From contig NZ_QTTA01000021.1 of assembly GCF_003730275.1 (NCBI RefSeq), forward strand, positions 62,001 through 126,000: a stretch of 64,000 bases of DNA, in the 5' to 3' direction. This stretch comes from Brevundimonas halotolerans. Its GTDB lineage: Bacteria > Pseudomonadota > Alphaproteobacteria > Caulobacterales > Caulobacteraceae. The first letter of the stretch is position 1, and every line of letters starts with the position of its first letter. The position numbers were made by a program, and so were the translations under genes. This document shows, one piece after another, positions 1 to 1,471 of the stretch. The notes beneath the pieces were generated by a model that ran no database searches, was not told where the DNA came from, and saw nothing but the letters and a program-made list of their open reading frames with translations.

Positions 1-1155
1 CCGAGCAACGTCGCCGCAGGGCCACGGGGCAGTTGCGTAAGGGTCATCAGGCTTGAAAACTTTCCACACATAACAGCCCTCAGGATACGCCCATTGAACT
101 TGGTCGCGACGGGCAAGGGGACTCTTAGAGAATCCAACCTTGATGATCTTTCGATCGCCAATCTCAGCCGCCGATCGGCCGAGCCAGACCGACAGATCGC
201 CTTCCAGCGTGAAGATGTAGAGGTGACGAGGCCCATCGGGTTCACCAACCCAGAAAGGACGGGTAGCCACCGGTCCGGCACGGCCGCTCGAAACGGAGCG
301 TTCAAGGGTTGTGATCGAGGCGTCGATCTCACCAGATCGCCCATAGACGGGAACTTCGTAGACATCGAGGGCGAGAAGTGCGCCGGCTTCCTCCGACGGC
401 ACAGCCACCCCGTCAGAGCCGATGTACTGAGGGTCCGCGCTGGCATAGGCGGACGGTAGTATTTCTTCGATCGGTCTCCAATCCTCGGGCACTACACGCC
501 AAGCTCGAGTTGCCCTGACCGCGTAGGACCACTTGCCGCGTGAGTCGGGATCAGCTTCTTTCTTTGCCCATCGGTCACCGGCGATGAACGCCTGTGCAGG
601 GCCTACCTCGTGCGAAACCTCGAGAATGCCGACGAGTTTGCCGCGCATCCCTTCAGGGCCCTTACCCTTGGTGACGTAGATGGCGACCAACACGCCTGGC
701 CGGGTAGCCCTAAGGAAGTTGTTCCGCTTAGCCTCGCTTGCGAAGCCTATGCAGCCCCAATCAGCCGGATCGAACCCCCAAAACGAGGTCAGCCACACCT
801 GCCGACCGTCGGGCAGTTCGTCTGGCCGTGACGCCAATTCTGGTATGACCGACCAATCGAAGCCAAAGACGCGTTCTTGCTCGGCTTGGACGTCGATATC
901 TCCAAGCCTCGCGCGGATATGGGCCATGGCGTCCTCATCAGGTCGAGTCTTGCCCTTGGGAACTAGGATGAGGGTTAGGGGCGGCAGACCTCGGTCTGCC
1001 AACTCGTGGAGGATGACTTCGAGGTGACGTCCAAGGCCTCTCCCGGTCGGATGTCCCCACCCGACTTGGTCCGCGACCATTTGGTAGGTCACCCGGCTGC
1101 GCTGCATGGCCTTGGCTGCCAAATAGCGCGCGATTTGGGTTTCAATGACGTCCAT
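1..1155 (-). CDS. partial accessory protein: winged-helix-like + EVE/PUA-like + GIY-YIG-like domains
   Basis: An unbroken minus-strand frame of 385 codons runs from ATG at 1155 off the left edge, so the C-terminus is missing. A GGGGAG sequence about 10 nt upstream supports this start. Residues 1-75 (VTYQMVADQVGWGHPTGRGL, then LPPLTLILVPKG) resemble the small winged-helix domain often seen at the N-terminus of accessory proteins. Residues 119-225 (WLTSFWGFDPADWGCIGF, then GKLVGILEV) look like an EVE/PUA-type fold, a known reader of modified bases. Residues 311-365 (HLYIF, then IIKVGFSKSPLARRDQVQ) resemble a GIY-YIG nuclease of the T5orf172/MUG113 kind. Domain calls rest on motif reading only. 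It lies on the element side of a tRNA-derived attachment site and looks less GC-rich than the core genes. A defence role is inference; a phage or regulatory role is possible. Confidence 0.7.
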   Translation of the reverse strand, partial: MDVIETQIARYLAAKAMQRSRVTYQMVADQVGWGHPTGRGLGRHLEVILHELADRGLPPLTLILVPKGKTRPDEDAMAHIRARLGDIDVQAEQERVFGFDWSVIPELASRPDELPDGRQVWLTSFWGFDPADWGCIGFASEAKRNNFLRATRPGVLVAIYVTKGKGPEGMRGKLVGILEVSHEVGPAQAFIAGDRWAKKEADPDSRGKWSYAVRATRAWRVVPEDWRPIEEILPSAYASADPQYIGSDGVAVPSEEAGALLALDVYEVPVYGRSGEIDASITTLERSVSSGRAGPVATRPFWVGEPDGPRHLYIFTLEGDLSVWLGRSAAEIGDRKIIKVGFSKSPLARRDQVQWAYPEGCYVWKVFKPDDPYATAPWPCGDVAR

Positions 1156-1417: not shown

Positions 1418-1462
1418 TTCGTAATGCGGGGGTCAGGTGTTCGAGTCACCTAGGCGGCACCA
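1418..1462 (+). other. tRNA-Thr(CGT) 3' fragment / att site
   Basis: The bases read as anticodon loop TTCGTAA (1418-1424), anticodon 3' stem TGCGG (1425-1429), variable loop GGGTC, T-arm AGGTG-TTCGAGT-CACCT (1435-1451), acceptor 3' strand AGGCGGC (1452-1458), discriminator A and encoded CCA (1460-1462). The anticodon CGT assigns threonine. Upstream there is no matching CCGCA stem strand, D-arm or GCCGCCT acceptor strand, so this is not a working tRNA gene. Tyrosine integrases commonly recombine at the anticodon loop and leave such a displaced 3' half at the distal end of the element; the intact tRNA should then lie to the left of the window. Confidence 0.8.
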
Positions 1463-1471
1463 CCTTCTTCC

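Follow-up and report, generated by a model that had tools for sequence, protein, structure and literature searches.

The locus and its island

At the start of the window, by which we mean the whole stretch of 64,000 nucleotides analysed here (G000:C21:62001-126000, G000 being the host genome), an open reading frame on the minus strand begins with an ATG at position 1155 and reads off the window start. A sequence-only reading of this stretch had described the cut-off product as a candidate defence nuclease and quoted the motifs LYIF and IKVGFSKSPLARR from it. Both motifs are present, and the reading frame proved real: the full gene, recovered from the host genome, ends at C21:61812 and comprises 447 codons (protein P0001). 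The ATG at position 1155 is taken as the start because relatives begin at an aligned methionine. A purine-rich stretch lies upstream of it, and an alternative, longer start at a TTG would give 472 amino acids. The gene is intact and its relatives are under purifying selection, with dN/dS of 0.05-0.14 in the six of ten pairs of relatives that have a usable dS (0.17 to 1.8); the remaining four pairs are saturated, among them the pair that includes the window copy, which is too distant for an estimate. Its occurrence in nine further genomes, at 24 pattern-scan loci and on a plasmid, along with the low dN/dS, makes this a real gene, beyond chance. Coordinates are collected in Table 1.

Table 1. 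Coordinates of the gene, its predicted domains and the island boundaries
Feature	Location	Strand	Basis
5' part (residues 1-385) of the wHTH-EVE-GIY-YIG gene, 447 aa	window 1..1155	-	host-genome reading
Last 62 codons and stop of the wHTH-EVE-GIY-YIG gene	G000:C21:61812-62000, just outside the window	-	host-genome reading
Winged-helix-like N-terminal domain, residues 1-105	window 841..1155	-	common to subfamily A (10 sequences, mean column identity 79%)
EVE/PUA-like domain, residues about 116-275	window 331..810	-	sub-threshold EVE matches in relatives, hhalign, PDB 1wmm
Predicted GIY-YIG domain, N-terminal part, residues 306-385	window 1..240	-	hhalign, residue counts, PDB 1ywl
Y313 codon	window 217-219	-	GIY-YIG domain residue
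K339 codon	window 139-141	-	GIY-YIG domain residue
G341 codon	window 133-135	-	GIY-YIG domain residue
R349 codon	window 109-111	-	GIY-YIG domain residue
Right island end: 47-bp copy of the 3' part of tRNA-Thr(CGU)	window 1418..1464	+	repeat comparison
Other 47-bp copy, inside the tRNA-Thr(CGU) gene	G000:C21:48067-48113		repeat comparison
tRNA-Thr(CGU) gene	L002:4036-4111		

The gene sits in a mobile anti-phage island. It is the last gene of the 15.3 kb between the two 47-bp repeats, a region of 59.4% GC set in richer DNA (72.2% over 4 kb on its left side, 67.8% on its right). Gene order within the island is hsdM, a PrrC-like gene (PADLOC E 1.4e-128), hsdS, hsdR, small genes, a primase-like gene, a tyrosine integrase gene and the wHTH-EVE-GIY-YIG gene. 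The type I system is complete and lies 6-14 kb from the last of these, with the integrase and primase-like genes in between; the window copy stands outside any operon with a methyltransferase gene, hsdM being present in its island. Two adjoining small genes of the island (137 and 127 aa, L002:12617-13496) resemble each other by eye. In the congener G015 the site is empty: an intact tRNA-Thr separates the genes of the left flank, hemC/hemD-like by eye, from that of the right. In another genome, G028, the repeat is present in the right flank with no tRNA gene, and a further copy is located 7.5 kb upstream, suggestive of an additional insertion. Both the position at an island end and the defence setting that the earlier reading had proposed are thus confirmed, the setting for the island itself (type I system, PrrC-like gene) and for many relatives described below.

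Domain composition of the protein

Along its 447 residues the protein is predicted to carry first a winged-helix-like domain, then an EVE/PUA-like one and, at the C-terminus, a GIY-YIG domain of T5orf172/MUG113 type. These folds are assigned by way of relatives, the window protein itself having no family match: searches against Pfam and NCBIfam gave nothing at E<=1, PADLOC returned the BrxH model alone at 0.038, and PHROGs gave a single match at 0.37.

The predicted GIY-YIG domain was the strongest of the three original guesses. Scanned singly, 7 of 22 relatives matched T5orf172 (best E 0.0049) and 4 of 22 matched MUG113 (best E 0.0088), all sub-threshold as judged by E-value, and an NCBIfam scan of relatives returned three families, each in one member. 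T5orf172 was found below the cut-off in five distant members (L009, L012, L013, L015, L091) and in L096, and above the Pfam cut-off in L098 (27.3 vs 20 bits); the Pfam scan of the distant members L010, L011 and L090 and of the EVE-only relative L017 gave no match. When profiles were compared by hhalign, the GIY-YIG part of a 33-row family alignment matched ten T5orf172 domains with a probability of 96.1 and an E-value of 2.9e-9, hhalign E-values being those of single comparisons. None of 60 column shuffles reached the hhalign scores of the GIY-YIG or the EVE part, and seven mismatched domain pairs gave E-values of 0.23-0.66. The 33-row set retains L026 and L010, though these lack the C-terminal part, and leaves out L014, L016, L017, L040, L096 and L097; alignment A4 leaves out L020, a near copy of L019, and L040, which runs into a contig end. 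Five repeats (L005-L008 and L087, repeating L032, L030, L031, L041 and L035) were dropped too.

Residues Y313, K339, G341 and R349 are kept in all 33 aligned proteins, and E388 and E406 in 31, the other two being truncated; a catalytic Tyr, Arg and Glu, which the sequence-only reading had singled out for checking, are accordingly found. Both glutamates are encoded outside the window and were therefore invisible to that reading. A lysine takes the place of the second tyrosine of GIY-YIG in the window protein (K339-x-G341). Searches of PDB sequences with the whole-length profile gave two chance matches, and the separate domain profiles led to the expected folds at best rank: the GIY-YIG profile had a sole, weak match to 1ywl (E 0.24), a UPF0213 protein and as such a GIY-YIG protein, and the EVE profile had its best match, also weak, to 1wmm (E 0.036), a UPF0310 and thus EVE protein. 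The window protein as a single sequence matched 1wmm alone (E 1.5). We consider the GIY-YIG fold and catalytic residues to be well-supported predictions for this family. The same type of GIY-YIG domain ends a DUF3427 protein (exactly at the Pfam cut-off) at L096:178-1911, a further pairing of reader and nuclease.

The EVE/PUA-like fold is likewise a well-supported prediction for the family, and the possible modified-base reader suggested earlier holds good for the first half of the domain, its second half not being reliably aligned. An EVE match was seen in 5 of 22 relatives scanned singly (best E 0.023, sub-threshold by E-value) and below the cut-off in the distant members L015 and L091. By hhalign, the EVE part of the 33-row alignment matched 11 EVE domains with a probability of 89.5 (E 2e-6) and the 8 canonical EVE domains alone with a probability of 38.8 (E 3e-4). 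The domain also has conserved tryptophans, to be read with the unreliable alignment of its second half in mind.

The N-terminal winged helix is the weakest of the three calls, a putative assignment from sequence pattern alone. The pattern agrees with the original suggestion; a relative of known structure did not emerge, since the domain profile matched no PDB sequence at E<=10, and an hhalign match to the alkyltransferase domain DNA_binding_1 was marginal (14 columns, probability 23.3, score 23.8 vs 20.6 for the best shuffle). The same pattern recurs in L100 and L101 (L101:1456-2463); the latter protein has at its end what looks by eye like a PD-(D/E)XK motif, so the module would be common to different nucleases.

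Relatives, their neighbourhoods and the predicted function

Relatives found so far are all alphaproteobacterial. Matches occurred in 10 of 200 near genomes, own genome included (nine others). A pattern scan of 84,980 genomes, which detects only members carrying two short peptides, gave 24 loci, whose names we take to be all alphaproteobacterial. At class level, profile searches matched 8 of 385 genomes, and at phylum level 6 of 398, own genome included and all in the same class; six of the places found (L092-L097) match a single domain only. Four plasmid records were recovered, one with a copy of 58% identity over 96% of the length. A phage origin of the family was considered and rejected: tblastn against 50,697 phage records gave no match, and the 37 pattern matches in viral contigs included no relative.

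Members with the winged-helix-like N-terminus form subfamily A (the window protein, L014 and L018-L026). Subfamily B (L027-L041, L088/L105) has a different short N-terminal domain or none, and a distant group includes L009/L108, L010/L109, L011-L013, L015, L090/L106, L091/L107 and L098. The short domain of subfamily B, for which we found no covering Pfam model, recurs without EVE or GIY-YIG at L093:1495-2259, L095:1492-2193, L092 and L094, where it stands before ribosomal protein S9 (E 5e-46), behind AIR carboxylase (E 2e-63) or behind a BrnA antitoxin (seen by Pfam in L094 and by eye in L092).

We think it probable, with moderate confidence, that the window protein is a single-chain, modification-dependent endonuclease of restriction type. 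Its winged-helix-like part would help hold the DNA; the EVE/PUA-like domain would probably flip out and read an altered base, for which the VcaM4I precedent makes a modified cytosine the likeliest choice; and the C-terminal GIY-YIG domain would cut near the base so read. Such an enzyme would back up the island's type I system, hitting phages that escape the latter by DNA modification. That DNA is the substrate, that cutting depends on modified bases, which base is read and what the effect on phages would be are points that we infer.

The defence context of the family is directly observed, relatives standing beside GajA/GajB, Mrr_cat, GmrSD, Avs3a-like, Drt and methyltransferase genes. We examined the neighbourhoods of 11 members of subfamily A, 16 of subfamily B and 5 distant members, several of them short from contig ends. 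Within subfamily A, L018 lies near two C5 methyltransferases, an Mrr_cat protein and GajA/GajB; L019-L021 near a PLD-SNF2 helicase, a Type-ISP-like methyltransferase and an SLFN_AlbA protein, with GmrSD too in L021; L022 near an Avs3a-like protein; and L014 near ORC-CDC6-like and weakly HEPN-like genes. No named defence neighbour was seen by eye for L023, L024 and L025 (one neighbour scanned in each of the last two), and L026 is truncated amid what by eye are transposase-like genes. In subfamily B, L029 has an N6_N4 methyltransferase and a Drt8-like gene, and L027 has Drt3a/b-like genes. The surroundings of L023, L031, L038, L040 and L041, mainly housekeeping-like by eye, count against the restriction-enzyme reading.

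The methyltransferases bear on the main rival explanation, a partnership of restriction-modification type: the EVE domain would read the mark set by partner methyltransferases, or its absence, and direct or license cutting, with helicases as motors and the window copy as a more loosely attached member that cooperates with its island's type I system. A DNA methyltransferase gene lies nearby in 19 of the 32 neighbourhoods (5/11 in subfamily A, 11/16 in subfamily B, 3/5 among distant members), where some calls are by tblastn only, the weakest being L109 (25% identity), and L020 is nearly a copy of L019. This compares with 0.011 N6_Mtase matches expected per 21 kb (112 matches in 209.8 Mb from 76 genomes), a control based on a single methyltransferase family and uncorrected for kinship among loci. 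According to PMC11037411, a modification-dependent enzyme that stands alone should have no methyltransferase beside it, and the 19 cases count against an enzyme of that kind. The partners belong mostly to N6/N4 families, so a cytosine reader would be harmless to the host; L018, with its two C5 methyltransferases, fits only if its reader ignores their mark, which is awkward for a general 5mC reader.

Arrangement within subfamily B also argues for a partnership. An MmeI-like methyltransferase, the EVE-GIY-YIG protein, a DEAD/ResIII helicase and a T5orf172 GIY-YIG protein are encoded together in 9 of the 16 neighbourhoods (L027, L030, L032, L033, L034, L036, L037, L039 and L105; Pfam was run on the L032 copies only). 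The methyltransferase gene of L034 is cut by a contig end, L105 has an inserted small gene pair, and L028 shows three of the genes before the contig ends. The start of the EVE-GIY-YIG gene overlaps the preceding gene by 4 bases in six of ten loci and by 1 base in another, the gaps in the other three being 1, 2 and 21 bases. NPPY/F is kept in 8 of 9 MmeI-like proteins, and no obvious E-x-K was seen by eye in their N-terminal part. Type I genes adjoin the distant members L015, L108 and L109. Against a partnership, the type I system of the window is complete and set apart by the integrase and primase-like genes, partners vary between branches, members without the operon exist (L031, L035, L038, L040 and L041), and the control carries the limits given above. 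We judge this explanation rather unlikely, if the foremost competitor of a modification-dependent enzyme acting alone.

Some of these loci have features of their own. At L015:7476-8948 (annotated M48) and L108:3956-5838 (by eye), a metallopeptidase gene immediately precedes the EVE-GIY-YIG gene and follows type I restriction genes. The EVE-only relative on a Thioclava plasmid (L017:1969-4954) has as neighbours a protein that looks PLD-like by eye, a subfamily-B type helicase and an MmeI-like gene of reduced length; it looks as though GIY-YIG had given way here to a PLD nuclease acting in trans.

Two further explanations are much less probable. Binding and cutting of modified RNA, for example in a suicide or damage response, would suit a PUA-like domain, as domains of this superfamily bind RNA as well (PMC7641849), and the island also includes a gene for a PrrC-like RNase; the related T5orf172 protein that has been tested cuts DNA (PMC8263062), the other domain looks DNA-binding and the partners are DNA restriction genes, which leaves this reading very improbable. 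Least credible of all is a homing-type endonuclease carried by a mobile element, in keeping with the T5orf172 relationship and the mobile island but at odds with the empty phage and viral-contig searches, with the presence of a reader domain and with the constant place of the gene in the subfamily-B operon.

A bolder idea, which we put forward tentatively and consider rather unlikely, is that EVE-GIY-YIG proteins are effectors of undescribed multi-gene restriction systems in alphaproteobacteria, in which a nuclease-dead methyltransferase, a helicase and one or two GIY-YIG proteins would act jointly and EVE would sense what state the DNA is in; the three-domain form in the window would be a version moved into a type I island. 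Should the subfamily-B operon be a real four-gene system, it would show how a modified-base reader can be accommodated in a restriction-modification operon, a setting in which reader and methyltransferase might be expected to clash. The window protein itself is a compact candidate enzyme whose single chain perhaps holds two readers that contact DNA, and it belongs to a defined family open to testing; enzymes able to recognise modified cytosine also serve as laboratory tools.

Comparison with known enzymes

The EVE-GIY-YIG kind of fusion has been known since 2020, when such proteins were reported as numerous and predicted to act in modification-dependent restriction (Bell, Wolf and Koonin 2020, PMC7641849), and the window protein is a variant of it with a winged-helix-like N-terminus. 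The reported fusions share with it the EVE reader, the GIY-YIG nuclease and the association with restriction systems; one three-part fusion mentioned there, GIY-YIG/MmcQ-YjbR/EVE, differs in having MmcQ-YjbR as its middle domain. The novelty originally claimed thus shrinks, the more so as enzymes combining a winged helix with GIY-YIG are already characterised (PMC11037411). What may stand of it is the three-part order: among the papers and passages searched, we recognised neither the winged-helix/EVE/GIY-YIG order nor the subfamily-B operon.

VcaM4I, an EVE-HNH enzyme that flips 5mC and 5hmC, likewise joins an EVE reader and a nuclease in one chain, but its nuclease is HNH and it has no N-terminal winged-helix-like domain (PMC7897488). 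Ahi29725I and Apa233I, shown to need 6mA, have an N-terminal winged helix and a GIY-YIG nuclease as predicted for the window protein, from which they differ in their size of about 24 kDa and in lacking EVE; the likeness of the winged helices is by description only. PUA-wH-HNH enzymes have been characterised in the same work (PMC11037411). CMoRE / PD-T4-3 is a type IV GIY-YIG enzyme against 5hmC DNA (PMC12923530), and thus a single-chain GIY-YIG enzyme directed at modified-cytosine DNA, as predicted for the window protein. Its GIY-YIG domain is N-terminal, with GIYxY-YIG, and its sensor has no known relatives, whereas in the window protein the domain is C-terminal and reads LYIF ... KVG.

Odn (Gp88) of phage ICP1 provides a tested nuclease domain of T5orf172 type: it cuts DNA, its E180A mutant does not, and its GIY-YIG domain is joined to a separate DNA-binding domain; unlike the window protein, it is phage-encoded, sequence-specific and without EVE (PMC8263062). 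The lysine at the place of the second tyrosine has its counterpart in R.Hpy188I, where a lysine at the same place in the motif is the proposed general base, in a type II enzyme without a reader domain (PMC2630997).
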